Below, in pieces: positions 43,601 through 63,151 of a stretch of DNA of 64,000 nucleotides. This DNA is from Rhodanobacter sp. C01. GTDB lineage: Bacteria > Pseudomonadota > Gammaproteobacteria > Xanthomonadales > Rhodanobacteraceae. Both the position numbers and the translations under genes were made by a program. Below the pieces are notes generated by a model that searched no databases, was not told where the DNA came from, and was given only the letters and a program-made list of their open reading frames with translations. The stretch lies in the NCBI RefSeq assembly GCF_002001045.1, contig NZ_MUNR01000005.1, forward strand, positions 1-64,000. Reading direction: 5' to 3'. Position 1 is the first letter of the stretch; each line of letters opens with the position of its first letter.

Positions 43601-45956
43601 TAGGCAACGTGCCACTCAGCGCATACGTGTACGGCGCAACGCCGCCAGTGGCCGTGAAGCTCTGGCTGAACGCCCCGGCATAAGCGGCATTCAACGTACC
43701 CGATGGCGATAGCGTAATCGTCGGCGTGCCGATGGTGCCGCTATAGGTTTGCGTGCCGTAGTAAGGACCGGTACCGGTGCTGCTGTCCTTGGCCTGGACG
43801 GTAAAGCTGTAGGGTCCGGCGGCGGTCGGCGTGCCCGATAGCGTGCCGGTGCTCGACAGCGACAGGCCGGGCGGCAAGCTGCCGCCGGTCACGCTGAAAC
43901 TGTAAGGACCGGTGCCACCGGCCGAGCTGATCGCCTGGCTCGTCGCCAAGCCATCGGTCATGCCCGAAAGCGTGCCAGGGGACAGCGTTATGGTGGCCGC
44001 GGCAATGGTGACCGTATACGCCTGCGAGCCGGTCTTGCCGTTGGCATCGGTGACCTGCACGGTAAACGAATAGCTGCCACCTGCCGTCGGCGTACCACTC
44101 ACGCTGCCGCTGCCCAGCAGCAGTCCGGGCGGCAAACTGCCGGCGGAGATCGCATAGCTGTAAGGCGCGGTACCTCCTTGCACGGCTATCGTTTGCGAAT
44201 ACGCCGTGCCGACCGTGCCCGATGCCAGCGACGAGGTGGTGATGACCGGCGAGGACGGTGTGATGGTGAGGCTGTAGGTGATGGATTTGCTGAATGGCCC
44301 GGTGCCCGTGCTGCTGTCCTGCGCGGTAACGGTAATGCTGAACGCGCCGTAGTTGGTGGGCGTGCCGCTGAGCACGCCGCCACTGCTCAGGGTCATTCCG
44401 GTGGGCAGCGTGCTTGAGGTCGAGTACGTGTAGGGCGCCGTGCCGCCGCTGGTGCCGATGGTCTGCGAATACGCCTGGTTCTGGTTGCCGTTGGGCAAGG
44501 CGCCGGGCGATATCGTCAGCGTGGGGCTGGCGATGACGAGGGTTTGCGCGCTCGACTGCGTCGACGCACCGTTGGCATCGGTCACCTTGAAGGTCACCGG
44601 AAACGAACCGCCCGCCGTGGGCGTACCGCTGATCGCACCGGTGCTGCTGTTGAGGCTCAATCCGGCCGGCAACGCGCCGCTGGCCACGCTGTAGGTCAGC
44701 GGGCTGGCGCCACCCGATGCGCTCACGCCGCCGCTGTAGGCAACCGCCACGGTTCCGTTGGGCAGGTTGATCGTGCCCAGGGCCAACGGCGCGTCGATGG
44801 TCAGGTTGTAGTTCTGCGTGCCAGTGAAACCGTGCGCGTCGGTCGCGGTCACCATGATCGCGTCGTTCCCCTGCGAGTTCGGCGTGCCGCTGAGAACACC
44901 CGCGGACGAAAGCGTCATGCCCGACGGCAATCCCGTCGCGGAGAACGTATACGGCGACGTGCCGCCAATGGCCGACAATGTCGTGGCGGCGTAGGCCGAA
45001 CCGGCCGTGCCACTGGCCAGCGAGGCAGGCGACAGCGTGATGGTGGGTGCGGCCACGGTGAACGTAAAGTTCTGCTGATCGCTGCTGCCGGTGGAATCCG
45101 TCACCACCAGGGTAATCGTCGTGTTGCCCGTCGCTGTCGGTGTGCCGGAAAGCGTGCCGCTTGCCGAAAGATTGATGCCTGGCGGCAGCGCATTGCTGCC
45201 CGAGGCACGACTGAACGTATAAGGCGCCGTGCCGCCGCTGGCGCTCAAGCTCTGGCTGTAGGCCACATACGCGGTGGCGGTGGGCAAAGTCGTCGGTGCT
45301 ATCGCGATCGCGCCGGTAATGGTCAGCGTGATGTTCTGCGTGCCCACTTCACCGTTGCTGTCGGTCGCCGTTTCGGTGAAGCTGAAAGTGCCGCTTTCAG
45401 TCGGCGTGCCGCTGATCAGGCCGGCGCTGTTGTCCGATATGCCTGCCGGCAAAGTTCCGGTGTTGATTACATAGGTATACCGACCGCCATTGCCGCCGGT
45501 GGCGCTGAACTGCAGGGAATAGGCCGTGCCGACGTGTCCGCTGGGTGCCGTCGTCGGGCTCAGCACGATGGGCGTGGGTGCGCTGGAGGTGATGGTGACC
45601 GTGACCGTGATGGCTTCGCCTTCGTCGTCATACCAGGCGAAGGAATCGGAGGTCGCGCCATCGCCGTTGTTGACATAGGTGATGTCGTAATCGTTGGCGC
45701 TGACCGACACCGTGCCGTGAGAAGGTTGCACCGCAATCGGTGGCACATTGGTGCCAAATGGCGAACAGGCCGGCACCGCGAAGGTGGTCGTGCCACCCGA
45801 GGTGTCCTGGATCGACATGTTCGGGCACTCGTTGGCGTAGGCCAGCTTGGGCACGAGCATGCCGCCGAACAGCAAGAGGGGCAGCATGCGAACCAGAAAA
45901 GACGAGGTACTGCCCGACACCGGACCGCGCGTGCGCGGCGATAGCCAATGCCACAT
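40698..45956 (-). CDS. Giant autotransporter adhesin with Ig-like repeats
   Basis: A 1752-residue type Va autotransporter-like protein. The ATG at 45956 is preceded by GGGGAAGGGAT; a reading 20 codons longer lacks such a site. After a signal region (MLPLLLFGGMLVPKLAYA) comes a short cadherin-like segment, about eleven He_PIG (putative Ig) repeats with the LSGTPTAAGTYSF-type motif, three Big_9/cadherin-like repeats (TPAHDFFGTDSFAYTATG and similar), a linker with a short coiled coil and a C-terminal autotransporter barrel of about 260 residues (from YTVWTGGAVNFGS) that ends in VQKKF, a proper BamA signal. Likely surface adhesion or biofilm matrix. Divergent from the tail-collar genes. Confidence 0.9.
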   Translation of the reverse strand: MWHWLSPRTRGPVSGSTSSFLVRMLPLLLFGGMLVPKLAYANECPNMSIQDTSGGTTTFAVPACSPFGTNVPPIAVQPSHGTVSVSANDYDITYVNNGDGATSDSFAWYDDEGEAITVTVTITSSAPTPIVLSPTTAPSGHVGTAYSLQFSATGGNGGRYTYVINTGTLPAGISDNSAGLISGTPTESGTFSFTETATDSNGEVGTQNITLTITGAIAIAPTTLPTATAYVAYSQSLSASGGTAPYTFSRASGSNALPPGINLSASGTLSGTPTATGNTTITLVVTDSTGSSDQQNFTFTVAAPTITLSPASLASGTAGSAYAATTLSAIGGTSPYTFSATGLPSGMTLSSAGVLSGTPNSQGNDAIMVTATDAHGFTGTQNYNLTIDAPLALGTINLPNGTVAVAYSGGVSASGGASPLTYSVASGALPAGLSLNSSTGAISGTPTAGGSFPVTFKVTDANGASTQSSAQTLVIASPTLTISPGALPNGNQNQAYSQTIGTSGGTAPYTYSTSSTLPTGMTLSSGGVLSGTPTNYGAFSITVTAQDSSTGTGPFSKSITYSLTITPSSPVITTSSLASGTVGTAYSQTIAVQGGTAPYSYAISAGSLPPGLLLGSGSVSGTPTAGGSYSFTVQVTDANGKTGSQAYTVTIAAATITLSPGTLSGMTDGLATSQAISSAGGTGPYSFSVTGGSLPPGLSLSSTGTLSGTPTAAGPYSFTVQAKDSSTGTGPYYGTQTYSGTIGTPTITLSPSGTLNAAYAGAFSQSFTATGGVAPYTYALSGTLPTGLSFNAATGTLSGTPAQSGTFSFTVTATDHSTGTGPFIGTQNYTLNVSAAAITFTPASIPSGTDGTAYAAVTFTATGGIAPYHFAIAGGGSLPAGMSLSSSGTLSGTPSASGTFSFNVQATDADGATATQGYSIAIGIPTLSLSPATLPAPTAETAYSQTFTASGGTPGYSFKINNGALPAGLSLSSSGVLSGAPTAAGTYTFSVLATDSSTGTGAPFTVGRSYTVTVAAPSITVSPNSLPGSQVGVAYSQQLSAGGGNGSYLFSISAGALPAGLTLSQNGLLSGTPTAAGTYSFTVTAADGLGFTGSQAYSMSTQQAKPVAVNDHASTMANQAVTVNVTSVDTGPITSIALTSTPAHGTATVSGLSVVYTPAHDFFGTDSFAYTATGPGGTSAPATVTITVTPLAVPTVPAQKVTVLAGNTVAISATTGATGAPFTTVAIVQSPASGTATVSGTTINYTAAANASGTVAFTYTLSNPFGVSTPATVTVTVDPRPVAVSRNIATVAGREVQVNLTDGASGGPFTAAAVTGITPAAAGTARIVPSASGYELDFLASATFNGTATVTFTLSNAFATSAPATLTIAVAARPDPSKDPEVMGVLTAQVNATREFAQGQIDNFQQRLEALHGGGGNSGFQNGMTVMSDDGMTPTMRGPSAYMTDAGPSGLLDRRDMMASQAPADPQASSGTPLPDGYTVWTGGAVNFGSRDTTTTVNGFDFTTAGISVGVDKRYGSNFAMGLGAGYGHDSTDIGHNGSQSTADSYNVAWYGSFSPSASTFVDGLVGYQWLSFDARRYVTADGSTVDGSRDGHQLFASLSGGYEYHAGQLMVSPYGRLDAALAHLNGYTEQGDAIYALTYGNQAVHTTTGSLGVRINYLIKNDDSVLMPQLRLEYGHDFEGSSQATMTYADLLAGPVYRAQIYPLAQNHVLIGLGVNWQMAHQLLLRVDYQNQFNTGEPNDQSILINVQKKF
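42650..45570 (-). repeat. Eleven tandem He_PIG repeats coded within the autotransporter
   Basis: Units of about 80-95 codons each carry ITLSPATLP-like starts, an AYSQT..ASGGTAPYTYS-like middle, LPPGLSLSS and LSGTPTAAGTYSFTV ends. I count eleven [L/I/V]SG[T/A]P blocks. Units differ enough that they are old duplications, though some neighbours are close (the three with DSSTGTGP). Repeat number is likely to vary between strains. Confidence 0.85.
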
Positions 45957-46200
45957 ATCCCTTCCCCTGTTCCCTGTAATCGGCAATCCGCCCCGGTTGC
46001 CTGCTGCACCCGGCAACTCGATCCAGCTACAGATCTAGCAAGGCTTGTGCCATCCGTATGACGCGACTGCGCAGCTCACATCGCCGCAAACTGTATCGCA
46101 AATTGCACCGGGGTGTTGCGCTGATGCGCATATTGAACCTGTCATTCGGTTCCGCCAAAGTGGCGCCGCTGGACCACACATCACACAGAGGACGTTCACG

Positions 46201-46731
46201 ATGTCTGAGTTCTATATCGGGCAGATCATGCTCACCGGGTTCGGTTTTGCGCCACGCGGATTTGCCCAGTGCAATGGACAGACCATGTCGATCCAGCAAA
46301 ACCAGGCGCTGTTCTCGCTGATAGGCATCACCTACGGCGGCAACGGCATCCAGACTTTCATGCTGCCCAACCTGCAAGGGCGCACGCCGACCGGCGCGGG
46401 CTCCTCGGTCGATCCGGGCTGGCAGCCCACGACCTACCCCATCGGGCAGATGAGCGGCGTGGAAAATGTCACCTTGCTGACCGGCAACATGCCGGCACAC
46501 GCGCACACGGCCACGGCCACGACGCAGACCGGTACCTTGAGAAATCCGACCAATGCGGTCTACGCATCGGCATCGGAGTCTCTGTATGGACCCGCCACCG
46601 CCAATCAGGTGGCGCTGAATCCTGCCCAGATCGGCATGACCGGGGGGAACCTGCCGCATCCGAACATGCAGCCGTTTCGGGTCATCAATTTCAACATCGC
46701 GCTCAGCGGAATCTTCCCCTCCCGCAACTGA
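46201..46731 (+). CDS. Phage tail collar domain protein (MdpB-like), copy 1
   Basis: A 176-residue member of the tail-collar/microcystin-dependent-protein family. N-terminal MSEFYIGQIMLTGFGFAPRG, then FAQCNGQTMSIQQNQALFSLIGITYGG, FMLPNLQGRTPTG and a C-terminal INFNIALSGIFPSRN, all family marks. These proteins are related to short tail fibre tips but occur as free genomic clusters in Xanthomonadales and cyanobacteria; no other phage genes are nearby. First of three tandem paralogues, start at 46201. The 240 bases before it separate it from the autotransporter. Confidence 0.88.
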   Translation: MSEFYIGQIMLTGFGFAPRGFAQCNGQTMSIQQNQALFSLIGITYGGNGIQTFMLPNLQGRTPTGAGSSVDPGWQPTTYPIGQMSGVENVTLLTGNMPAHAHTATATTQTGTLRNPTNAVYASASESLYGPATANQVALNPAQIGMTGGNLPHPNMQPFRVINFNIALSGIFPSRN

Positions 46732-46769
46732 CACGGCGTTTCCTCCTACGGCTTACTGCGGAGCATCCT

Positions 46770-47303
46770 ATGAGCACACCTTATGTGGGCGAGATTCGCC
46801 TGTTCGGCTTCCCGCGCATCCCCACCGGCTGGTTTGCCTGCGACGGCAGCCTGCAATCCATCGCCGAATACCAGACGCTGTATGTCCTGATCGGCACCAC
46901 CTACGGCGGCGACGGCATAAACACCTTCGGGCTGCCTGACCTGCGCGGGCAACTGCCCGTGCATCAGGGGAACGGCCAGGGGCTCAGTCCACGCGTGCTG
47001 GGCGCATCGGGCGGTACCGAAACGGTCACCCTGCAAACGAACCAGCTGCCGGCACACACGCATACGCTGGTGGCCACCGCCACGCCGGCCAGTTCCGCGC
47101 AGCCGGGCAATCAGCTGTTGCCGGCGGCACTGGCCAACAGCGACACCATGTACGCGACCGATGTGACCGGCGCGCCGTCGTTTCCACTCGCAAACGCGGC
47201 CGTCGGCATGCAGGGTGGCAGCCAGCCGCACGACAACACGATGCCGACATTGACGGTGTCGTATTGCATCGCCTGGGCAGGCATTTTCCCGTCGCAAAGC
47301 TGA
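46770..47303 (+). CDS. Phage tail collar domain protein, copy 2
   Basis: A 177-residue paralogue of the gene before, with MSTPYVGEIRLFGFPRIPTGWFACDG, then YQTLYVLIGTTYGGDGINTFGLPDLRG and a closing SYCIAWAGIFPSQS. It starts 38 bases after copy 1. The middle third differs from the other copies, which suggests that the variable part binds different partners. Function is unknown. Confidence 0.88.
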   Translation: MSTPYVGEIRLFGFPRIPTGWFACDGSLQSIAEYQTLYVLIGTTYGGDGINTFGLPDLRGQLPVHQGNGQGLSPRVLGASGGTETVTLQTNQLPAHTHTLVATATPASSAQPGNQLLPAALANSDTMYATDVTGAPSFPLANAAVGMQGGSQPHDNTMPTLTVSYCIAWAGIFPSQS

Positions 47304-47357
47304 TCCACTCATGCACACAGCAAGCGCGCCGCAAGCGCAGCGCGCGAGGAGCACACG

Positions 47358-47888
47358 ATGACTACGCCTTTTGTCGGTGAGATCCAAGTATTCGGCTTCA
47401 ACTTTGCGCCTTACCAGTGGACCCAGTGCAACGGCGCCACGTTGCCGATCAGCCAGAACACCGCGCTGTATTCGCTGATTGGCGTCAACTACGGCGGCAA
47501 CGGCACCACCACCTTCCAGGTGCCCAATCTGGCTGCGCGCGGGGCCTGCAACCAGGGCAACGGTCCCGGCCTCACGCCGCGTGTCATCGGCGAGACCTTT
47601 GGCAACGCGATGGTGGCGCTGACCTCGCAGCAGATGCCGTTGCACAATCATGGGTTCAATATCTACAACCAGCCCGATTCGGCCAAGCGCAGCAACAAGC
47701 CCAGCCCCGGCAATTCCCTGGTGGTGCCGACGCAGGCCACGCCGTTTCTGCAGGCCGCGCCCAATACGACGTTCGCCGCCAACATGCTTGCGAGCAACGG
47801 CGGCAACCAACCGCATGAAAACGAGCAGCCGTATCTGGCGCTCAATTTCTGCATGGCGTTATCGGGGGCTTTCCCCAGCTTCGGTTGA
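47358..47888 (+). CDS. Phage tail collar domain protein, copy 3
   Basis: A 176-residue paralogue (MTTPFVGEIQVFGFNFAPYQW, YSLIGVNYGGNGTTTFQVPNL, NFCMALSGAFPSFG). A good Shine-Dalgarno (GAGGAG) precedes the ATG. Its stop overlaps the start of the GNAT gene (TGATG), so the two are coupled. Copies 1-3 share the same N- and C-terminal frame with a changed middle segment. Confidence 0.88.
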   Translation: MTTPFVGEIQVFGFNFAPYQWTQCNGATLPISQNTALYSLIGVNYGGNGTTTFQVPNLAARGACNQGNGPGLTPRVIGETFGNAMVALTSQQMPLHNHGFNIYNQPDSAKRSNKPSPGNSLVVPTQATPFLQAAPNTTFAANMLASNGGNQPHENEQPYLALNFCMALSGAFPSFG

Positions 47889-52022: not shown

Positions 52023-52991
52023 CTAGGGCCGCTGGCTCGGCCGGAGCATTTCCCATCCGCATAGTTGGTCGGCTGTATTGAGATCGAGGCGTGTAAGGAT
52101 CACATTCGCGGGTCCCGGGTTGGTCAGCTCGACACGGGAACGGTCGCTGGCCAAGTTATGTGGAAACACGGCGAGGCATCGGCCGCCGGCTTTGGTCGAC
52201 GGGTAGAGAATGCCTTCGAACCCGGCATCAAGAATGAGCCCCGCCAAGATTTGGCTGACGGCGGGCAGACCGAATTGTGCTGGCGACACGCGCCAATTCT
52301 TGTCGAGGACCTCTTTACGCAGTTGACTCGGCGTGCGGATCATGAAGATAGATTTCTCCGGGATCTGCAGGCGCCTCTGAATCTTGCGCGCCTCAGCTGG
52401 CAGCCGCATTTTCCCTAGCACTGCGCATAACGCCTTAAGACAGTCCTTTTGATCAAGGTCGAAGACGCGGTCAAGGTAGCCATTGAAATGGATGACCGAA
52501 AAATCGTCCTTCGGTACTAGGGCCAAGTCCTCAGGCGTGAGTCCATCCACGCGTTCGCCGCGATCGAGCTGAAATTTCTCGCGAAATGCTGTCTCCAGAT
52601 CCTCGGCCAGGTAGAGCGCTGGCCAGGGCTTGTAGAGCGCTTGTTCGACATCGGTGCCGATGTTGAACCGACCGCCGAACCCAGTGAGGCTCCCCGCTGC
52701 AGACAGGGGCGAATTGCTAAAGCGAAAGCTGACGTTGCGCACCCAACTATTAATGGCGACTTGTACGGGCGCCACGCTCTGCAGTGCAGCAAGCATCTCG
52801 GGCTGGTACCGTCGGCGCTGCGGCTCGATTCCGAAGTACAGATCGTTATTGAGCTCGTCCAAGTCGGACGAGACGCGCCGCCAATGCTTCAGATCCACCT
52901 CGGAGAAGCGATCGAGCACGTGCAGGCTGGCCCTTACTCCAGAGCTCGCTGATAGCGTTGTCGGGAGGGGTTGCAGCTTACGCTTGGTCAC
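52023..52991 (-). CDS. RES-domain toxin (NAD-phosphorylase type)
   Basis: A 322-residue RES protein, longer than the usual 150-230 because of N- and C-terminal extensions. The RES core has FRFSNSPLSAAGSLTGFGGRFNIG (motif core GGRFN), ALYLAEDLETAFREKF and an aliphatic-rich C-terminal strand ILAGLILDAGFEGILYPS. Known RES toxins degrade NAD+ and are held by Xre antitoxins. The GTG start at 52991 immediately follows the antitoxin stop, so the two are coupled. Confidence 0.85.
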   Translation of the reverse strand: MTKRKLQPLPTTLSASSGVRASLHVLDRFSEVDLKHWRRVSSDLDELNNDLYFGIEPQRRRYQPEMLAALQSVAPVQVAINSWVRNVSFRFSNSPLSAAGSLTGFGGRFNIGTDVEQALYKPWPALYLAEDLETAFREKFQLDRGERVDGLTPEDLALVPKDDFSVIHFNGYLDRVFDLDQKDCLKALCAVLGKMRLPAEARKIQRRLQIPEKSIFMIRTPSQLRKEVLDKNWRVSPAQFGLPAVSQILAGLILDAGFEGILYPSTKAGGRCLAVFPHNLASDRSRVELTNPGPANVILTRLDLNTADQLCGWEMLRPSQRP

Positions 52992-53405
52992 TTAGCGGGC
53001 GCCGACCGACTTGTTGCTCGGGTCAGCCATGGCGTTGACGATGACTTTGCGCAAGCGGTCGAATCGACCTAGCCGCACCATGTCTCGCGGTGAGATGTCG
53101 CCAAGGTTCGGGTTCTTGGCTTTGAACCACACCGCCGTCTTTTGCACATCGCCGTCGAAGATCTTGGCGACCAGGTTGATGGTGATGGCAATCTCCTGGA
53201 GGCGTTCGATAACCGCTGCGGGGGCGTTCTTGTCGTAGCGGACGGACGATGGAGATACATCGGCTACCTTGGCAACGTCCGCTTTTCGGAGGTCGAGCCA
53301 CTTCGAGACGAGTTCTGGCTTGAATTCGGCCCCCATACCGAACTGCAGGGCGTCCGTGTCAGGGATATTGCTGAACAGGCTGGCTGCGTTCATGACTAAG
53401 GACAT
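52992..53405 (-). CDS. Xre/MbcA/ParS-type antitoxin
   Basis: A 137-residue partner of the RES toxin. The N-terminal half has a helix-turn-helix-like stretch (LVSKWLDLRKADVAKVADVSPSSVRYD) and the C-terminal half a DUF2384-like segment (TAVWFKAKNPNLGDISPRDMVRLGRFDRLRKVI) that normally plugs the toxin active site. It probably represses its own promoter; an operator-like dyad lies 48 bases before the ATG. A Met at residue 5 is an alternative start. Confidence 0.85.
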   Translation of the reverse strand: MSLVMNAASLFSNIPDTDALQFGMGAEFKPELVSKWLDLRKADVAKVADVSPSSVRYDKNAPAAVIERLQEIAITINLVAKIFDGDVQKTAVWFKAKNPNLGDISPRDMVRLGRFDRLRKVIVNAMADPSNKSVGAR

Positions 53406-53938: not shown

Positions 53939-54262
53939 TCAGCGCTTTGCCTTCGCCTTCAGCTCGGCAGCCATCCGTCGTTGCTCTGCCGGCGACATAC
54001 CTGCTACTGCAAGAATGATGTCCGCCAGTGCATCGTTGTCTGCCAGTAGGTAGGCCAACGGGACACCAAGTTCCTTGGCCAGCTTGCTCGCCGTCACGAA
54101 ATCTGGCTCAGAAGTTCCGAGTTCGTACCTTGTAACCCTGCTGGACACGACGTCCTCCGAAAGCCCAATTCTCCTGCCAAGCTCTCGCTGGGAGATGTCC
54201 AAAGCCAAGCGCGCCTCCTTCAGGCGCTTGGTGAACATGCTGCGGGAGTTGGGAGGCGACAT
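53939..54262 (-). CDS. XRE-family transcriptional regulator
   Basis: A 107-residue HTH_3 regulator. The HTH spans about residues 9-65: MFTKRLKEARLALDISQREL, GRRIGLSEDVVSSRVTRYELG, then TASKLAKELGVPLAYLLADND; the tail SPAEQRRMAAELKAKAK may dimerise. It is transcribed away from the lasso receptor gene, and inverted repeats lie between them. It may be the regulator of the lasso locus in place of the FecI/FecR pair found with many such loci. No good Shine-Dalgarno; Met 9 (54238) is another possible start. Confidence 0.85.
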   Translation of the reverse strand: MSPPNSRSMFTKRLKEARLALDISQRELGRRIGLSEDVVSSRVTRYELGTSEPDFVTASKLAKELGVPLAYLLADNDALADIILAVAGMSPAEQRRMAAELKAKAKR

Positions 54263-54466: not shown

Positions 54467-54667
54467 TGTGAGGATGATTCTCCGCAGAGCTTTTCGACAA
54501 CGGCGGCGGGATGGCGCAACGCCAGGTACTCCTCGTCGGTGATGCCGCACCCGTCGCCTGCGCAAGCCAAACGCGAGACAGATTTCGCCCGACGACCGTG
54601 CCAACGCCGGAACAGGACCGGAAGACACGCGAAGAGGGCCAACCCAGGGGAAAGCAAAGGACGCAGC

Positions 54668-57058
54668 ATGAAGACAAGCACGCTACGCAACGCCATTTCC
54701 ATCGCCTTGCTCATCGCCGGCCCCGGCACGGGCGAGTGGGCCATGGCCCAGGACGCCACGACAGACACGGCCACGCAGAGTAGGGCGCCGATGACCAAGG
54801 CGCCGGCCAAGGCGCAGCCGAAAAAGCCGACCGACACGTCCGCAGCGCCGACGGCAACCAATCTGCAGACCGTGACCGTCACCGGCACACGCATCCGCGG
54901 TGGCACCACGCCATCGCCGGTCATCACGATCAATAGCGAGCAGATCCAGCAGGAAGGTTTCGCGGATCTCGGGGACGTGATCCGGAGCGTGCCGCAGAAC
55001 TTCTCGGGTGGGCAGAACCCGGGTGTTGCGGCAGGCGCAGGGCAAGGTGGGCAAAGCAATCAAAACCTGACGGGTGGCTCGGGCCTCAATCTGCGCGGTC
55101 TGGGGCCGGATGCCACTTTGACCCTGCTCGATGGTCGTCGCATGTCCTATGGCGGGGCTGTGCAGGCGGTCGATATCAGTGCCATTCCTGTTGATGCGAT
55201 AGAACGCCTTGAGATCGTCCCGGATGGTGCTTCGGCCATCTATGGCTCCGATGCGGTGGGGGGCGTAGCCAATGTGATCCTCAGGCGCGACTTCGATGGT
55301 GTGACCGTGGGCACGCGCTATGGCGGTGCCACTGGTGGTGGACTGACCACACGCGAGTACAACGCTACCGCCGGCACCACCTGGACCACGGGTGGCTTGA
55401 TTGTGACGGGAGAGAAAACCTCCAACGATCCGATCTACTCGGACCAGCGCGACTACACCCAGTCGATGTATCGGCCTTCCACGCTGTGGCAGGGCAACGA
55501 TCTTCGCAGCGGTTTGTTCAGCCTGCATCAGTCGTTGGGCGATGCCGTTGAACTGCATCTGGATGCGCTCAGTAGCGAGCGGGATATGGATACAGCGACG
55601 GGCTACGGCAGCGTCTACTATCTCCGCAAGGCGGAGACCAATACCACCTTGGCGGCGCCCAGTATCGAAGTATGGCTGCCGGGAGATTGGACGCTCACGC
55701 TTGGCGGGGCGGTCGGAAAAGACCATACGTCTTATGCTCAGCCGACGGTGAGCAGTGCAAGCGGGGCGGTCACCGCCAGCGGCCTCGGCGAGTACCGCAA
55801 TAAGAGCCTGACTTACGAGATCGGTGCAGAAGGGCCGTTGTTCACACTGCCTGGCGGTGAAGCAAGGCTGGCTACCGGCGCAGGCTATCGATACAACGAT
55901 TTTCTGTACAAGAGCGGTAACACAACCTACGCCGATGATGGCCAGAGCGGCCGCTTTGCCTATGCCGAGTTGAGCCTGCCGTTGGTCGGGCCAGAGCAGG
56001 GCATTGGCGGGATTGAGCGACTTGCGCTGACAGGCGCCGCCCGCACCGAGGATGGGGATTATGGGAGGGTGACCACGCCCAAGCTGGGGGTGATCTATTC
56101 GCCCAGTACCGATTTCTCGTTGAAGGCTTCATGGGGCAAGTCGTTCAAGGCACCCACACTCCTGCAACGCTATTTAGCCCAGAACGCTCTCTATTACCCC
56201 GCGGGGCACTTTGGTGCTGGTTATCCGACGGATGCTACGGCGTTGTTTCTGTCGGGAGGTAGGCCAGACCTGCGTCCGGAACGGGCCCGGACATGGAGTG
56301 CCTCGCTGGCATTCCATCCGGAGAGCCTGACCGGACTCGAGACGGAGCTGACCTGGTTCGATATCGACTACACCCAGCGGGTCCTGCAACCCATCACCGG
56401 GAGCGCTGTCCTCGGCAATCCGATCTATGCGGAGTTCGTCGATTACGATCCCACCGGGGCCGCGCAGGCGGCGGCGCTTGCAAACGCCAGCAACTTCTAC
56501 AACTACGTGGGCACGCCTTACGACGCCAGCAAGGTCGTGGCGATCGTCGATGGCCGGTATGTCAATGCGGCTCGGCAGCGGATCAATGGGGTCGATCTGT
56601 CGGGGTCGTACCACGTCGACTTGGGGGTAGGAGGGTTGACGGTCCGTGGCTCGGTCAGTTGGTTGAACAGCGCACAATCCCTGACGGTGGCGCAGAGCCC
56701 TTACAACCTGGCCGGTACGTTGTTCTACCCAGCCAGGATCAACAGCCGAATAGGGGCGGTCTGGCAGCAGGGCGGGTTCAGCGCTTCGCTGTTCGGGAAT
56801 TACAAGAGCGGAGTGACCGACACGGCCGATGGCAGGAAGGGTGCCTCGTTCACCACCTTCGACGCTGCGCTGCGCTACGACACCGGCGCACGCGATGACG
56901 CCTGGTCGAACGTGGCGTTGGAGTTGTCGGCGCAGAACCTGCTCAACCGTGCGCCGCCGTTGTATGTGGTCACCTCGTTGACCAATGCCCCTTATGACTC
57001 GACCAATTATTCAGCGGTCGGTCGCTTCCTGAGCCTTTCCGTATCCAAGCACTGGTGA
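54668..57058 (+). CDS. TonB-dependent receptor of the lasso peptide locus
   Basis: A 796-residue outer-membrane receptor. The ATG at 54668 gives a signal peptide (MKTSTLRNAISIALLIAG, cut near AMAQ) and has AAAGGA before it; an in-frame ATG at 54539 would spoil this. LQTVTVTGTRIRGG starts the plug, followed by NLRGLGPDATLTLLDGRRMS and VPDGASAIYGSDAVGGVANVIL, then a barrel ending in VGRFLSLSVSKHW. Next to a lasso isopeptidase, such receptors are taken to import the mature lasso peptide. The isopeptidase begins 53 bases after the stop. It is related to but distinct from the receptor at 18398-21328. Confidence 0.93.
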   Translation: MKTSTLRNAISIALLIAGPGTGEWAMAQDATTDTATQSRAPMTKAPAKAQPKKPTDTSAAPTATNLQTVTVTGTRIRGGTTPSPVITINSEQIQQEGFADLGDVIRSVPQNFSGGQNPGVAAGAGQGGQSNQNLTGGSGLNLRGLGPDATLTLLDGRRMSYGGAVQAVDISAIPVDAIERLEIVPDGASAIYGSDAVGGVANVILRRDFDGVTVGTRYGGATGGGLTTREYNATAGTTWTTGGLIVTGEKTSNDPIYSDQRDYTQSMYRPSTLWQGNDLRSGLFSLHQSLGDAVELHLDALSSERDMDTATGYGSVYYLRKAETNTTLAAPSIEVWLPGDWTLTLGGAVGKDHTSYAQPTVSSASGAVTASGLGEYRNKSLTYEIGAEGPLFTLPGGEARLATGAGYRYNDFLYKSGNTTYADDGQSGRFAYAELSLPLVGPEQGIGGIERLALTGAARTEDGDYGRVTTPKLGVIYSPSTDFSLKASWGKSFKAPTLLQRYLAQNALYYPAGHFGAGYPTDATALFLSGGRPDLRPERARTWSASLAFHPESLTGLETELTWFDIDYTQRVLQPITGSAVLGNPIYAEFVDYDPTGAAQAAALANASNFYNYVGTPYDASKVVAIVDGRYVNAARQRINGVDLSGSYHVDLGVGGLTVRGSVSWLNSAQSLTVAQSPYNLAGTLFYPARINSRIGAVWQQGGFSASLFGNYKSGVTDTADGRKGASFTTFDAALRYDTGARDDAWSNVALELSAQNLLNRAPPLYVVTSLTNAPYDSTNYSAVGRFLSLSVSKHW

Positions 57059-57111
57059 TGCCGCGCGGTGAGCAAAGCCGTGCACTGCCATACCGATACG
57101 GGAGTGAGGTC

Positions 57112-59208
57112 ATGATGTCTTTTCCTTTCTACGCCGCCGTCAGGCGCATCTTGAGCGTCGGGATGTTGCTGAGCGGGCTTGCTGTTGTCCATCAAGTGTT
57201 TGCGACGTCACCACGGCAGCTGGTGGAGGTTGCGGATTTCAGCAGTCCTTTGGTGTCGCCCGACGGCACGCATGTGGCGTTTCGGGTGTCTCGGGCATCG
57301 ATCGACCGCAACACGTACGACAGCACGTGGTACATCCAGCTGATGGATGGATCGTTGCCACCGCAGCGCGTGAGCGACGGTGGTGTTCCCCTGCGCGATT
57401 CGGCCGGTGTCGCATTGCCGGCTACGGCAATCTGGTCGCCGGACGGGCACGCGATCTATTACCGCGCCCGTATGGATGGCCGCATCGACGTTTGGCGCGC
57501 TTCGGTCGTTGGTGCCGCCGAACGCGTGACCGGTGGCGACGCCGATGTGCGGGACTTTGCGTTGAGCGATGACGGCAAGACGCTGAAGTACAGCATCGGA
57601 CCAACCCGCGAGGAGGTGGTTGCGGCGGAACAGGCTGAGTACGACCGCGGCATTCGTGTCGACCGATCCACGCCTCTCGGGCAACCCCTGTTTCGATCCG
57701 GCTATACCGGTGGGCGACTTGCCACCCAGCGTCTTGGCCTCATGTTCAATCGTGTCGACCTGACTACCGATGTGCCGGATCGATGGAAGGCGATCGATCT
57801 GGCGCGTGGTGAGGTGCGGGATATCTCGCCATCCGAAAAACCACCTGCGCCTCTCGCGGCGTCCGATCTCGACAAGCAAGTGCCTCACGTCTGGAAAATG
57901 GCACGCGATCGCAATAGTGGGCGCATTGTTCTGCTCACGCGTACGGGAGCGCGGACGGATCGGCCACGGATCGAACTGGCCATGCTGCCTGGCCGGGACG
58001 CACGCACGCTGGTGAAATGCGTGGCGGAGGCGTGCACCGGCAAAAGGATCAGTGGCGTGCAGTGGCGCCCCGGCACTGACGAAGTGATCTTCACCGTGAC
58101 GCCCTACGACCAGGGATTCGCTCAGTCCATCTATTGCTGGAACGTGGCCACTGGCGAGGTATATCCGGTAGCCACATCCAGCGGCATGTTCGGCGGGGAA
58201 GATCGTTGGGGACCCGGTACCTGTGGCGTATCACCCGTGGCGCTGGCGTGCGTGACGGCCAATGCCAATCGACCGCCGCGGTTGGAGCGAGTCGATCTGC
58301 AGACGGGGGCACGGAAGGTCCTGTTCGATCCCAACAGGGATCTGGCGCAAGACCTTGCCAGGATTCCGACGCAACTGCTGCGCTGGAAGGATGCAAAAGG
58401 ACGGACGTTCACCGGCCAACTCTACTCGGCACGCCGAACGGGAAGCACACCACCACCGCTGTTCGTGACCTATTACCTGTGCGCCGGATTTGTGCGTGGC
58501 GGAACGGGCGACGAGTGGCCACTAGCCACGATGGCAGAGCAGGGCATTTCCACACTCTGCATCAACCAGCCTTCAGTCTCACCCAGCGCGGATGAGCGTT
58601 ACGGCATGGGGCAGTTGGCGGTCGAGGGTGCCGTCGAGCGACTCGCCTCGGAAGGCATGATCGACAGGACGAGGGTCGGAATGGGTGGGCTCAGCTTCGG
58701 AAGCGAAGTGACGATGTGGACACTCATCCATTCCCATGTGGTTACGGCAGCATCGGTGTCCTCGCCAACCATTTCGTCAATGTACTACCTGCTGGGCAGC
58801 AATATTGGCGAGCCATTCTTGTCGCTGCTGCGCAAGAACTGGCAACTGGGCGCCCCGGATGAAACGAAGGCGCACTGGCAAAAGATTTCGCCGACCCTGA
58901 ACCTGGGGAAGATCCATGCCCCGATACTGTTGCAGTTTCCGGAGCAGGAATACCTGTTCGCACTCGGATACGCCGTTCCGTTGATGCTGAGCAATCGCGC
59001 GGACGTCTATGTTTTCCCCAACGAGCCGCATAACAAATTCCAGCCTCGGCACAAGCTCGCCGTGTACACACGCAATCTGGACTGGTTTCGATTTTGGCTG
59101 CAGGGGTACGAAGATCCGGACCCGTCCAAGGCATCGCAATACGCCCACTGGCGCTCCATGCAGTCGAGTATGCGTCACGAACACATGGTGCAACGAGGCG
59201 CGCCCTAG
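57112..59208 (+). CDS. Lasso peptide isopeptidase (S9 prolyl-oligopeptidase family)
   Basis: A 698-residue exported S9 hydrolase. The ATG at 57112 follows GGAGTGAGG and leads into a signal peptide (residues 1-35, VVHQVFAT); an upstream GTG at 57055 overlaps the receptor gene. The N-terminal propeller (SSPLVSPDGTHVAFRVSRAS, WSPDGHAIYYRARMDG) covers the alpha/beta hydrolase domain, whose nucleophile is the Ser in GMGGLSFGSEVTMW; the His is in NEPHNKF. AtxE-type enzymes of this family open the isopeptide bond of lasso peptides in proteobacteria. Its product with the receptor would recycle the peptide. It converges with the cyclase gene; the two stop codons share CTAG. Confidence 0.88.
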   Translation: MMSFPFYAAVRRILSVGMLLSGLAVVHQVFATSPRQLVEVADFSSPLVSPDGTHVAFRVSRASIDRNTYDSTWYIQLMDGSLPPQRVSDGGVPLRDSAGVALPATAIWSPDGHAIYYRARMDGRIDVWRASVVGAAERVTGGDADVRDFALSDDGKTLKYSIGPTREEVVAAEQAEYDRGIRVDRSTPLGQPLFRSGYTGGRLATQRLGLMFNRVDLTTDVPDRWKAIDLARGEVRDISPSEKPPAPLAASDLDKQVPHVWKMARDRNSGRIVLLTRTGARTDRPRIELAMLPGRDARTLVKCVAEACTGKRISGVQWRPGTDEVIFTVTPYDQGFAQSIYCWNVATGEVYPVATSSGMFGGEDRWGPGTCGVSPVALACVTANANRPPRLERVDLQTGARKVLFDPNRDLAQDLARIPTQLLRWKDAKGRTFTGQLYSARRTGSTPPPLFVTYYLCAGFVRGGTGDEWPLATMAEQGISTLCINQPSVSPSADERYGMGQLAVEGAVERLASEGMIDRTRVGMGGLSFGSEVTMWTLIHSHVVTAASVSSPTISSMYYLLGSNIGEPFLSLLRKNWQLGAPDETKAHWQKISPTLNLGKIHAPILLQFPEQEYLFALGYAVPLMLSNRADVYVFPNEPHNKFQPRHKLAVYTRNLDWFRFWLQGYEDPDPSKASQYAHWRSMQSSMRHEHMVQRGAP

Positions 59209-60953
59209 GGCTGATGGCGCACCCAGTTCTCGACCATGCACAGGTCGAACATTCTGAGGAAGGTTCTATCGTGTGGTAGCAACGGCTTTGAAAAGAACGT
59301 ACTGAGGGCGGGTGTATCCAGAAGGCCTTGTGACCCGAGGCGGCCTGACAGCAGGGACTCTTCGATCTGATGCTTGTTTCGTTCGTACACGGCGACCAGG
59401 TAGCTCATGTAGGTCGCCTTGCTTTGGCGGTTCAATACGCCGGGTGGCAAGAGGCCTGCAAACGCTGTTCGTGCGACCGCGCGATTCTTGCCCCCTGCAA
59501 TCCACATCCAGCTCGGTGCGCGGAGGCAGGCCTCCATGACGGGTTGTGACAACAGTGGGAACCGCAGCGGCCGTCTGTACCTACGTGCTACCTGACCCTC
59601 GAAGAGCTGATTCGCAGCCAGATCGAATATTCGCTCCCTATCCCCAGGTAAAGCATTAGTGGGAGCCTCAAACCACGGATGTGTTTCCGGTTCCACGCAT
59701 GCCGATCCCGGCGCTAAGAATGTGGGATCTGGATGGAAGAGAGATTGAGGCGGCCGCCTCAACTTGGAGAGGGTAAGGCGGCCTGCCTTCCAGAATGTGC
59801 ATTGATGCAGGTTGGCCAGATCCCTCACGGCGGTGATGGCGGTGCCGAAACGATGGGCTCTCCACGCATCGGTGCTGGGGGCTGCGGTCCGCAGATAGCA
59901 GAACACCGAATCGCCTCCTCCTCCCGAGTAGTAAGCGGTGGTGCCGTGGTATTCGGCGGCGGCCTCCATGGCCTCGTCCACAACGTATTGCAATGGTCCC
60001 ATCGTGGGAGCAACGGAGTCGGGAGGTGGTGCGAAGTCGAAACATGCCTTGTCAAAGCCAAGGTGTTCGGTGTGGAGTTCGACGCCGAGTTGCACGGCCA
60101 TCTGGCGAGCGTACTGTCGCTCGTCCACCCCGGGAACCGGGGTAACCAGATTGCAGCAGACGACGCGCGCAGGGCGGTTCTGTAGGCACGCCGCGACGAT
60201 GGAAGAGTCGAGTCCGCCGGATAGTTCCAGCAATATGGACTGGTCGATGGCCGCCCACGCACGGACGGCGCTCTGGACGGCGTGACGGATCTGGTCTGCG
60301 GCATCGCTCAAGTCCCTATAACGGCGTTCTTGGACGACAAAATCCCAAGGTGACCACGTTTGCCGGACCGAGACCTTGGAGCCACTTGTGCGCAACGCAC
60401 ACCCAGGCAGCAACTCGGCGAGCTCGGCGAGTCCCGTGCGCTGCGTCTTTAAGCCGGGATACCTCAGGCGATGGGCAATGAAGTCCCAGTTGATCCGCTT
60501 TCGGTAGAGACCAGTCCGATTCGCCAAGGAAACGTCTGACGTAAGGAAGCCAGCTCCTTCCCTTATCGACCAGACGCATGGAAGGTTGCCGGCCGCGGAT
60601 GGGGCGCGCGTCATCGTGAACGCGCTCGGGTCTTGTGCATCGGGTTGGATAATGAGGTATGAACCCCAGCAGGTTTCCAGTATGTGCTTTTGGATCTGCG
60701 TTGGATCTGTAAGCCCTTGGAATCTTGCACTGTCATTGACAGCGACTCCATCCTGCGTAAACAGGCGGCCGATGAGTATCCCGTCGCCTGGCAGCGGCAA
60801 CGTCGACATGTCCTCCGTGCCGAACAGTGTCAGGGTGCCCGACGCATAGCGGACGCGCATACCCATCACATGGAGTGTGTCAGCCAGGTTGGGAAACTTA
60901 GCGTGGATACTCTCCTCGGTCGGCAACAGGATGGCGATGTAATCGTTGTCCAT
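59205..60953 (-). CDS. Lasso cyclase (asparagine-synthetase-like, C protein)
   Basis: A 582-residue protein that adenylates the side chain of the ring-closing Glu and forms the macrolactam with the core N-terminus. The PP-loop ATP site is LLELSGGLDSSIVAACLQ (about residue 245), followed by YSGGGGDSVFCYLR, both marks of the asparagine-synthase domain. The N-terminal about 200 residues resemble a glutamine amidotransferase fold but lack Cys2 (MDNDYIAIL), as in lasso cyclases. The start overlaps the B gene stop by one base (TGATG), fixing it. Transcribed after precursor and protease genes. Confidence 0.9.
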   Translation of the reverse strand: MDNDYIAILLPTEESIHAKFPNLADTLHVMGMRVRYASGTLTLFGTEDMSTLPLPGDGILIGRLFTQDGVAVNDSARFQGLTDPTQIQKHILETCWGSYLIIQPDAQDPSAFTMTRAPSAAGNLPCVWSIREGAGFLTSDVSLANRTGLYRKRINWDFIAHRLRYPGLKTQRTGLAELAELLPGCALRTSGSKVSVRQTWSPWDFVVQERRYRDLSDAADQIRHAVQSAVRAWAAIDQSILLELSGGLDSSIVAACLQNRPARVVCCNLVTPVPGVDERQYARQMAVQLGVELHTEHLGFDKACFDFAPPPDSVAPTMGPLQYVVDEAMEAAAEYHGTTAYYSGGGGDSVFCYLRTAAPSTDAWRAHRFGTAITAVRDLANLHQCTFWKAGRLTLSKLRRPPQSLFHPDPTFLAPGSACVEPETHPWFEAPTNALPGDRERIFDLAANQLFEGQVARRYRRPLRFPLLSQPVMEACLRAPSWMWIAGGKNRAVARTAFAGLLPPGVLNRQSKATYMSYLVAVYERNKHQIEESLLSGRLGSQGLLDTPALSTFFSKPLLPHDRTFLRMFDLCMVENWVRHQP

Positions 60954-61630
60954 CAGATCACCTTTATGGGTGTGAGAGCTAACGCATGTCCCAGGGCATC
61001 ATTCAGAACCGCAGTGCCGTATTGCGCCCAGCAGTGCGCGGAGAAGGGGTCTCCCGTCACGCCGAACACGAGATCGGCGTGCACTGCACGCTTGGCCAGG
61101 AACTTGATCATCGCGATGGAATCAAGAAGACAGCACATGTCTATCGGAACGTACAAACGCGCGCTGCGGAAAGCAGCGGCTACCTCCAAGGCACGGACTT
61201 CGCTTGGGCGGGACATTGAGGTTTGAGATGTCCGTTTTTCTCGAAGCGATGAAAGATTCCCGAGGGTCTGTTTCAAACTACGGGTTTTGAGTTGCCGGTG
61301 TGTGGAACATACGATGACCAAGGTGTCCAGCAGCTCGCTTAAAGTTGCGCGCCTGGTGCGAACTGACTCCTCCATCGCGCTATGCGTGGGAGTTTTAGTG
61401 AGGGGGAGTGATGCGCAATCGGAGTCGACTGGCCCGCGCACCAATATCTTTCGTTCGATCAATTTGCGAACGCTGCTACTTGGAGCATCGCCATCATCCA
61501 GGTAAGCGACCAACGCAGATGCCAAACATCCAGTGAGACGAAAGTAGCGGTCGTTCTGGATGTCGAGGAAGACAAGGTAGTCATCGACCCTGCAGTAGGA
61601 CAAGTCACGATGCAGTCTGAGTTGCGCCAT
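60953..61630 (-). CDS. Lasso peptide B protein: RRE plus transglutaminase-like leader peptidase
   Basis: A 225-residue fusion of the recognition element (B1) and the leader peptidase (B2). Residues 1-80 look PqqD-like (YCRVDDYLVFLDIQNDRYF). The peptidase domain has Cys in VPIDMCCLLDSIAM, His in PFSAHCWAQYG and an Asp in LNDALG, the catalytic triad of the B2 family. The ATG at 61630 is eight bases after GGAG; an ATG two codons earlier (61636) is too close to it. A longer frame to 61777 would run antisense-free through the hairpin and precursor gene and is not real. It cleaves the leader after Lys-27 of the precursor, by inference. Confidence 0.88.
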   Translation of the reverse strand: MAQLRLHRDLSYCRVDDYLVFLDIQNDRYFRLTGCLASALVAYLDDGDAPSSSVRKLIERKILVRGPVDSDCASLPLTKTPTHSAMEESVRTRRATLSELLDTLVIVCSTHRQLKTRSLKQTLGNLSSLREKRTSQTSMSRPSEVRALEVAAAFRSARLYVPIDMCCLLDSIAMIKFLAKRAVHADLVFGVTGDPFSAHCWAQYGTAVLNDALGHALALTPIKVI

Positions 61631-61642
61631 TTGCATCACTCC

Positions 61643-61670
61643 AAAAAAAGGCGCGCCTTTCGGCGCGCCT
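61643..61670 (-). terminator. Terminator-like hairpin between lasso precursor and B gene
   Basis: On the minus strand AGGCGCGCC (61662-61670) pairs with GGCGCGCCT (61649-61657), loop GAAA, and a run of seven T follows (61643-61649). It starts seven bases after the precursor stop. A leaky terminator here would give more precursor than enzyme mRNA; similar stem-loops between A and B genes are known from other proteobacterial lasso clusters. Confidence 0.85.
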
Positions 61671-61676
61671 CGTTGG

Positions 61677-61817
61677 TCATGCATCGGAAATGCCGGCGAG
61701 CGGATCGTCGCCGAGGGCCTCGATGAATCCACCGTTCCCTTTGGTTTCGATGCTCGCGACACCGAGCTCGATGACATCGTCCTGCGTATTGGTGCGGATA
61801 TTCTCGTTCGTGTTCAT
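61677..61817 (-). CDS. Lasso peptide precursor (A protein)
   Basis: A 46-residue peptide. The start ATG 61817 has GAAGGAG six bases before it. The leader (27 residues, from MNTNENIR) ends VIELGVASIETK, with Thr at position -2 before the cut and a LGxAS.ET pattern much like the astexin leader end. The core is 20 residues: ring GNGGFIE, tail ALGDDPLAGISDA. Gly1 would bond to Glu7, the only acid at positions 7-9, giving a seven-residue ring as in xanthomonins. The GIS near the C-terminus also recalls those peptides. A tail shortened by peptidases is possible. Confidence 0.88.
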   Translation of the reverse strand: MNTNENIRTNTQDDVIELGVASIETKGNGGFIEALGDDPLAGISDA

Positions 61818-61861
61818 CTCGATCTCCTTCGGTCATGTCATGGCAGTCCCATGACGCGAGC

Positions 61862-61891
61862 AGCGTAGGAGTCGGAAATTTTGATTTTCAA
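61862..61891 (-). promoter_or_regulatory. Possible promoter of the lasso precursor operon
   Basis: On the minus strand TTGAAA (61886-61891) and TACGCT (61862-61867) with an 18-base spacer resemble a sigma-70 promoter, in an AT-rich patch about 45 bases before the precursor ATG. The rest of 61818-62128 holds no gene; the alpha/beta hydrolase gene upstream is on the same strand and ends at 62129. Confidence 0.35.
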
Positions 61892-62128
61892 ATGATTATT
61901 GCGTTGTCATCCGTTGATTATTTCGGGAGCGTGATGCTCGTCGCGCAATGCCGGACTCAGCGTCGATGCTTCTTCGGCTGACTGCGGGCACCGCGGAACC
62001 TGATCACCCGAACCAACCGTCTGTGACCGGGGCGCCGGCACACTGAGCAGCTTCGAATCCAGCGGCCGCAACCGGCCAGAAGCGGACGTCCACTAATCTC
62101 GCCGAGAGTGTGCCGCAAAGATCAACGA

Positions 62129-63151
62129 CTACTTGTCGGGCGCTACAGTCTGTTGCAGAACCTTTGCCACGGCTTTCGCAACGACTTCGGGCTGATCCAG
62201 CTGGATATCGTGAGATGTGTTGTCCACAAACCAACGTTCCCCGTGCGTTGAAGTGGCGACTATCTGCGCCTGAGTCTTCTCTCTGGCACTTTCGAGAGCT
62301 TTGCGAACACTGGGAGGGGCTCCAGCGTAAGTATTGGCGGCAGTCAACACGACCAGCGGCACGGAACCATGTGTTTCCTTCAGCGGCACCGGCTTGCTGA
62401 ACACGACAGCATTGTCCTGCAACTCGGATAGCAGCGTACGCCAGAAGGCAGGCCTCGATTTTTCGGCAAGTATCACGGCATTTAGCTTTGCGCTGGCCAA
62501 TGGATTGGAACCCACCCCGCAAGCCTTAAGTGCCGGCAGCGACACCAGCGCATCCTTCTCGGCGCTTGCCTCGCATTGCCTGATCAAGGCAAATCGCTGG
62601 GCATTCAACTCTTCGTCACTCTTCGCCCATTCCGGTGCAAACGCAGCCACATCTTGTTCCGGTGGATCGATCAGCACCATGCCGGCCACCTCTGCGGCAT
62701 AGCGTTCCGCATAACGGCGCACGATATTGCTGCCTAGTGAATGGCCCACCAGGACAACTGGCGTCTTGATCCCCGCAGCACGAATCAAATCATGCAGGTC
62801 TGAAACATCTGCGTCGAGGTTTCGAGGCTGCGGCCCCCCGCTGCTGAACCCATAGCCGGCGCGGTCGTACGCGCACACTCTGGTAACCGATGACAGTAGC
62901 GGCTGCAATTTGAACCAGGTCATCGAATCGGCGTGTGAGCCTGCTTCCAGCATCACTGTCTGCAGGCCGCTTCCTGTGCAACGTAGATTGAGCTGACGCC
63001 CGTGCGCTACGGATACCAGCGTTGCCGCCTTTGCATAGGTATCCGGGATACGTTGGGGAACGATGACGCCGGCTGCACCAGCGAGGGGCGAAATGCCAAC
63101 GAATAGGGTCAGCACAGCTATACGAGACTTTTCCCAGAGCTTCTGGTTCAA
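62129..63151 (-). CDS. Exported alpha/beta hydrolase
   Basis: A 340-residue serine hydrolase with a signal peptide (residues 1-27, PLAGAAG). The nucleophile elbow is LVGHSLGSNIVRRYAE, the oxyanion region LEAGSHADSMTW, and the acid and His lie in the last 100 residues (TSHDIQLDQPEVV holds the likely His). YDRAGYGFSSGG is typical of hydrolases close to haloperoxidases and esterases. Substrate unknown. It lies upstream of the lasso precursor on the same strand, with 311 bases between, so a direct link to the lasso locus is not shown. Confidence 0.85.
   Translation of the reverse strand: MNQKLWEKSRIAVLTLFVGISPLAGAAGVIVPQRIPDTYAKAATLVSVAHGRQLNLRCTGSGLQTVMLEAGSHADSMTWFKLQPLLSSVTRVCAYDRAGYGFSSGGPQPRNLDADVSDLHDLIRAAGIKTPVVLVGHSLGSNIVRRYAERYAAEVAGMVLIDPPEQDVAAFAPEWAKSDEELNAQRFALIRQCEASAEKDALVSLPALKACGVGSNPLASAKLNAVILAEKSRPAFWRTLLSELQDNAVVFSKPVPLKETHGSVPLVVLTAANTYAGAPPSVRKALESAREKTQAQIVATSTHGERWFVDNTSHDIQLDQPEVVAKAVAKVLQQTVAPDK

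Follow-up and report, generated by a model that had tools for sequence, protein, structure and literature searches.

The question raised by the 64,000-nucleotide stretch of Rhodanobacter sp. C01 DNA analysed here (the window) is whether a 46-codon gene near its end (61817-61677, minus strand) encodes a lasso peptide precursor and whether its product would carry a seven-residue ring, as a preliminary description had proposed. That reading frame (gene A) was recovered with an ATG start, and its translation consists of the leader MNTNENIRTNTQDDVIELGVASIETK followed by the core GNGGFIEALGDDPLAGISDA (Table 1). Because an in-frame stop lies directly upstream (frame PKEIEMNTN...), this ATG is the sole likely start; the Shine-Dalgarno sequence preceding it is good, if not literally the perfect ribosome site first claimed. 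The leader end ETK with Thr at -2, the initial Gly of the core, Glu7 as the sole acid in positions 7-9, and the absence of Lys, Arg, and His from the core were all confirmed, and Thr-2, an initial Gly, and an acid within positions 7-9 are together the mark of a lasso precursor. The mass of the full-length macrolactam was recalculated as 1869.874 Da ([M+H]+ 1870.882; [M+2H]2+ 935.945), in agreement with the earlier value of ~1869.87 Da and its ions, and that of the trimmed form GNGGFIEALGDDPLAG was calculated as m/z 1484.702 (1+). The gene had been described as being of unannotatable size, but it exceeded the cut-offs of both Pfam PF24178 (Subterisin; 53.2 bits, cut-off 27) and NCBIfam NF033522 (benenodin; 39.0 bits, cut-off 33), and the latter profile had matches in 0 of 14 control genomes. 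The leader columns were conserved across 21 aligned relatives, in which Gly1 and Thr-2 were invariant and Glu7 was fixed by the choice of rows. A PDB search with the precursor returned just 2 weak, unrelated chains (E up to 10). We conclude that A is a genuine lasso precursor gene.

Table 1. Features of the lasso peptide locus, with positions in the window.
Feature	Position	Strand	Evidence
A, lasso precursor, 46 aa + stop	61677..61817	-	PF24178 2.9e-14; NF033522 5.2e-10
Shine-Dalgarno AAGGAGA	61823..61829	-	sequence; 5 nt before A ATG
Leader, 26 aa, ending I-E-T-K, Thr at -2	61740..61817	-	sequence
Core, 20 aa, GNGGFIEALGDDPLAGISDA	61680..61739	-	sequence; mass
Predicted seven-residue ring GNGGFIE, Gly1 to Glu7	61719..61739	-	prediction
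Inverted repeat GTCATGG-GACTG-CCATGAC, ~21 nt before A ATG	61837..61855	-	CATG-n-CATG form in relatives
Conserved AT-rich box AATCATTTGAAAATCAAA upstream of A	61880..61897	-	upstream alignment; promoter-like by position only
Terminator-like hairpin + T run between A and B	61648..61671	-	10 pairs, 8 G-C
B, leader peptidase, PqqD-like N-terminus + transglutaminase-like B2 domain	60953..61630	-	PF13471 6.8e-17
C, ATP-dependent macrolactam synthetase (putative lasso cyclase), asparagine-synthetase-like, SGGLDSS at residue 245	59205..60953	-	PF00733 4.6e-27
E, AtxE2-family lasso isopeptidase	57055..59208	+	NF033523 628.5 bits, cut-off 400
T, TonB-dependent receptor	54539..57058	+	PF00593 1.1e-25; PF07715 6.2e-18

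Gene A belongs to a five-gene cluster in which A-B-C on the minus strand face the isopeptidase and TonB receptor genes on the plus strand; all five frames are open, and the convergent ends of C and E overlap by 4 bases. B and C were both recognised by profiles downstream of A, where the preliminary description had placed them; the facing pair had gone unmentioned. B scored above the cut-offs of NF033537 (68.5 bits, cut-off 33) and PF13471 and weakly matched TfuB1 (6jx3, E 0.084); its start at 61630 was picked by its ribosome site, and the open frame extends further. The genome contains one PF13471 transglutaminase-type match, which is the B of the window, and therefore probably one such cluster. 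C exceeded the PF00733 cut-off and fell far below the NCBIfam lasso-cyclase cut-offs (52.5 of 525 bits; 86 of 300 for the albusnodin type), and a PDB sequence search with it found no relative; its assignment as a putative lasso cyclase draws on its position and on homology to the cyclases of rhodanodin- and xanthomonin-type clusters. In an alignment of E to 5txc, Ser547, Glu632, and His659 face Ser527, Glu610, and His638 of AtxE2, presumably the catalytic triad of that enzyme. The TonB receptor gene adjoins the isopeptidase gene, as in isopeptidase-type lasso clusters, and a facing or divergent pair of this kind beside a lasso operon is known from Sphingomonas and Asticcacaulis (PMC11006600, excerpt). 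A scan of 12 window proteins recognised neither a GntR regulator nor a sigma/anti-sigma pair, which are called almost constant in isopeptidase clusters (PMC9266682, excerpt). A frame at 53939-54262 resembles by eye an XRE-type helix-turn-helix regulator and is a candidate for one.

The reading that we favour, with a probability of about 0.88, is that A encodes the precursor of a xanthomonin-like, isopeptidase-type lasso peptide of class II (no disulfide) that would be closed at Glu7 and serve in self-uptake. B would cleave the leader after ETK, and C would activate the Glu7 side chain and couple it to the amine of Gly1 with the tail enclosed, so that the tail passes through a ring of seven residues. 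The final ISDA of the tail may subsequently be removed, a step proposed because the crystal form of xanthomonin I is without its last four residues (PMC13352647, excerpt). The peptide would probably be secreted, taken up again via the TonB receptor, and then opened to a linear form by the isopeptidase, in keeping with self-directed uptake rather than use as an antibiotic. According to published accounts, isopeptidases are cluster-specific and require a threaded substrate, and one proposal is a siderophore-like cargo role (PMC9266682 and PMC11006600, excerpts). That the cyclised peptide is instead a narrow antimicrobial seems improbable: many lasso peptides are antimicrobial, and astexin-1 has narrow activity despite the isopeptidase in its cluster, but astexin-1 is reported to be the exception, the other isopeptidase-type lasso peptides lacking such activity (both from PMC9266682, excerpt), and an ABC exporter gene was absent among the flanking proteins scanned.

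NF033522 was run against three overlapping genome samples. At genus level 19 of 45 genomes had a match, 18 of them above the cut-off; at family level the figures were 31 of 233, with 29 above it, and for the sample taken from the order 36 of 398, with 32 above it. A leader-pattern scan of named genomes yielded 52 loci, with 47 labelled as Lysobacterales genera or bins, 4 as Sphingomonadales, and 1 as Paenibacillus; the scan was built on 21 chosen Glu7 rows and could favour Glu7, and its patterns lie in the leader. The order A-B-C > < E-T was found by script in 66 of 73 loci, including the xanthomonin-type loci L118 and L119. Among the exceptions, the sequences of L062 and L097 end before T and that of L075 ends before B, L095 fits with its nearer precursor (the script took another at 17890), the L116 precursor was missed by the pattern and its cyclase frame is short (213 residues), L128 has no recognised precursor, and L086 possesses B and C with E and T absent from the 4,516 bases after C. 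The core of L086, GGPLMNEVIGGFTTAGISQD, is of the Glu7 type, and this locus is without an isopeptidase or receptor match in that stretch, unlike nearly all of the relatives examined. In L097 the lasso precursor, B, C, and isopeptidase run out on a contig of 3.1 kb whose label is Paenibacillus dendritiformis; the cyclase groups with Lysobacterales rows in the tree, and contamination thus seems likelier than transfer. Rhodanobacter genomes already have lasso clusters on record, from antiSMASH and without structures (PMC11596576, excerpt), and the excerpts consulted on Rhodanobacter lasso peptides describe no product.

The position of the acid was tabulated for 78 distinct precursor frames of 26-159 codons with cores of 12-32 residues, each having the leader motif [LIVMF][GSA][VITAE][AVI]Sx[EDN]Tx before G, A, S, C, or W. 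These counts refer to frames rather than genomes, with near-identical frames counted apart, and the filter missed the precursors of L070 and L116 and kept none for weak matches in L052 and L053. Glu7 was present in 56 of the 78 frames (E7 only, 45; E7/E8, 8; E7/D8, 2; E7/E9, 1), the others having E8 only (16), D7/E8 (3), or D8/E9, D7/E8/E9, and D8 (1 each). For the genus, Glu7 was found in 20 of 21 frames including that of the window (18 alone and 2 with Glu8; the last has Glu8). The earlier argument that seven-residue rings are rare is overturned by these numbers. The ring-neutral subset defined by NF033522 gave the same picture, with Glu7 in 42 of 52 frames (34 alone, 8 with Glu8). Gly10 accompanied Glu7 in 55 of 56 frames (41 of 42 in the NF033522 subset) and Gly11 was present in 16 of 19 distinct Glu8 cores; since an acid followed by x-x-Gly thus occurs in both types, the register seems to shift as one unit. 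All 53 distinct Glu7 cores, a set selected for Glu7, begin with Gly1, and the set is highly variable at positions 2-6; position 9 is I, L, V, M, F, Y, W, or A in 36 of them, a pattern that Leu9 of the window fits, and the core end is of the GIS/GIA/GIT/GLS type in 51, though the last four residues of xanthomonin I are missing from its crystal form (PMC13352647, excerpt). The results suggest that the seven-residue ring would be the commonest form in this bacterial group.

In a 71-row tree of C, the window falls in a nine-row clade (100/100) whose precursors all have Glu7, the core of the ninth row (L070) having been read separately from the 78-frame set. Ring interiors within this clade include NGGFI, SGEGN, LSGIT, and QMGIT, and the eight other members keep B, C, E, and T at cyclase identities of 59-83%. 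Glu8-only and D7/E8 cores, including the rhodanodin-type core, are in other clades. Three register changes were counted on the tree (68 rows) versus 14-20 in 300 label shuffles, and three versus 8-14 when only the 56 unambiguous rows were used. By choice, D7/E8 and D8 were labelled as eight and E7/E8 as seven; the change count excludes L095 and L102 (two precursors with mixed labels), L128 is unlabelled, and the tree itself excludes L116 (short cyclase) and L075 (sequence without a cyclase). The pattern fits a review according to which a one-residue change in ring size cuts production, whereas the caulosegnins, with 8- and 9-residue rings made by one enzyme set, speak against a strict rule that the cyclase sets ring size (both from PMC13352647, excerpt). 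The association could also reflect common descent of whole clusters, not enzyme specificity. The tree and counts suggest that Glu7 is the common register of the order and tracks cyclase lineage, a proposal absent from the literature searched.

Closure at Glu7, as originally predicted, is well supported, if indirectly, by the sequence register, the cyclase clade, and the Gly10 pattern. It is very improbable that the ring is closed elsewhere, for example as a larger ring at Asp11 or Asp12 (the nearest other acids in the core), or that the leader cut is shifted. Known-motif rules can fail, as illustrated by a metagenomic lasso peptide starting with Asn (PMC12670498, excerpt), but among the 53 distinct Glu7 cores Asp11 occurs in 3, Asp12 in 3, and any acid at 11 or 12 in 9, against Gly10 in 52; the uniform Glu7 of the window's cyclase clade and the invariance of Gly1 and Thr-2 in the 21-row alignment likewise argue against this reading.

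Comparison with known systems places the predicted Glu7-closed peptide more precisely. The core GVLPIGNEFMGHAATPGITE of Rhodanobacter thiooxydans LCS2 (L076), which we take to be rhodanodin, shares the genus, leader type, and five genes with the window but has Glu8, hence an eight-residue ring by register, and its cyclase belongs to a Glu8/Asp7-Glu8 clade. Rhodanobacter glycinis MO64 (L057) and Rhodanobacter sp. B05 (L059) have cyclases 80-83% identical to that of the window, with cores (GPGGFIENFGGSPLGGISEA and GPGGAIESFGGAPLGGISDA) that differ from it in ring and loop sequence. We take the cores of L118 and L119 to be those of xanthomonin I and II, or similar ones. The seven-residue-ring xanthomonins I-III of Xanthomonas resemble the window's peptide in the gene layout seen in those two loci, in Glu7 followed by x-x-Gly10, in the GIS-type tail end, and in matching the same precursor profile; they differ in ring sequence (GGPLAGE versus GNGGFIE), in the window's lack of an acid at position 8, in having two precursors per cluster versus the one found in the window, and in cyclases that are ~50% identical to C and lie in another clade. 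A PDB search with the xanthomonin I core found nothing, and AlphaFold misses the lasso topology of xanthomonins (PMC11639067, excerpt).

The xanthomonins, cited at the outset as the known case, do not stand alone. A seven-residue ring was predicted in 2015 for StcA of Stenotrophomonas acidaminiphila (PMC4675943), and huascopeptin, cited as a seven-residue lasso (PMC12427821, excerpt), has the same ring size as predicted here. StcA, likewise a prediction only, shares a near-identical leader end (LGVASVETQ), Glu7, and a GIS tail with the window's peptide but has the ring GILQGNE and a cyclase in a different clade (that of L104, another strain of the species). The precursor profiles of benenodin-1 and subterisin match A, and the benenodin cluster has an isopeptidase (PMC9266682, excerpt), but the acid of benenodin-1 is at position 8 versus 7 in the window (PMC12427821, excerpt). 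Judged by its sequence, the window's predicted peptide is a new addition to the xanthomonin-like, isopeptidase-type lasso peptides, preceded by the xanthomonins, StcA, and huascopeptin. Neither its core, nor a survey of Glu7 in Rhodanobacter, nor a tandem-core lasso precursor was found in the literature searched, which comprised few subscription journals, no bioRxiv, and some sources in excerpt.

Two elements upstream of A have counterparts in relatives. The inverted repeat pattern TCATGGNNNNGCCATGA occurs at 2 places in the genome, and its CATG-n-CATG form is present in 62 of 75 precursor upstream regions across genera; the 13 regions without it include 6 that precede second precursor genes and 4 from Sphingomonadales. 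The base pair flanking CATG on its outer side is T-A in 52 regions and C-G in 9, and this position is paired in 61 of 62 regions versus at most 57 in shuffles. A longer hairpin is disfavoured, in that pairs 3, 4, and 6 were no better than shuffled columns and pair 5 was nearly at the shuffle maximum. The repeat is a candidate RNA hairpin or a candidate protein-binding site. Further upstream, AATCATTTGAAAATCAAA has just one occurrence in the genome when up to 2 mismatches are allowed, and this box followed by the CTCCTACGCTG stretch is strongly conserved before the precursor in relatives (L093, L118, and L119 are each represented in the alignment by one of two upstream regions). The two are possibly a shared promoter; a sigma-70 promoter scan found 0 sites (1.4 expected), and an Rfam search of 59000-62300 (E up to 5) found nothing. 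Terminator-like sites in the same interval numbered 3 with 2.5 expected by chance, a scan that in itself proves nothing, and the hairpin between A and B may attenuate B and C expression. This hairpin and the decayed-looking relative L116, with its truncated cyclase frame, lend hardly any credence to a silent or decaying cluster that makes no peptide, given the five open frames, the retention of B, C, E, and T by the eight clade relatives, and the replacement of the A-B region in heterologous work when no clear ribosome site was seen (PMC12670498, excerpt), such that poor coupling of A to B would not by itself imply a silent cluster.

Seven-residue lasso rings have been treated as sterically extreme (PMC12427821, excerpt). 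The 53 distinct Glu7 cores, with their very different ring interiors, and a cyclase tree with about three register changes offer a natural set for learning how a cyclase sets ring size and which tails fit through a ring this small. The window's peptide would be a clean test case, having one acid at 7-9, no basic residue, and a predicted mass.

A relative from another family, L117 (8516-8797; G445:C1:1454515-1454796; also L051), has one 94-codon open reading frame with three lasso-like cores (GIPVGTTEPLG..., GIPGKLDEPLG..., and GFPVGADEPLG...), each following an LG/IG-x-AS-x-ET-R/Q motif; beside it, B, C, isopeptidase, and receptor are all matched at nearly full length. It is the only three-core frame among the 78, and a search of 8 further genomes of its genus found no such precursor. 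A lasso precursor with several cores in tandem would be out of the ordinary; if true, three lasso peptides would be made from one chain. We regard as doubtful a wider scheme for the Lysobacterales in which cyclase lineage would fix ring size, with seven common, and the core end GISEE/GISDA would be a second recognition element or a relic resembling the leader end (LGVASVET), the motifs merging at the L117 joints.

Elsewhere in the window, a RES-domain protein (PF08808) and its small upstream partner (52992-53405) within 52023-53405 look like a RES-Xre toxin-antitoxin pair. In 40698-47888, a third frame of similar appearance separates two proteins with phage tail collar domains (PF07484), and a 1772-codon repeat-rich protein adjoins these collar domain proteins.
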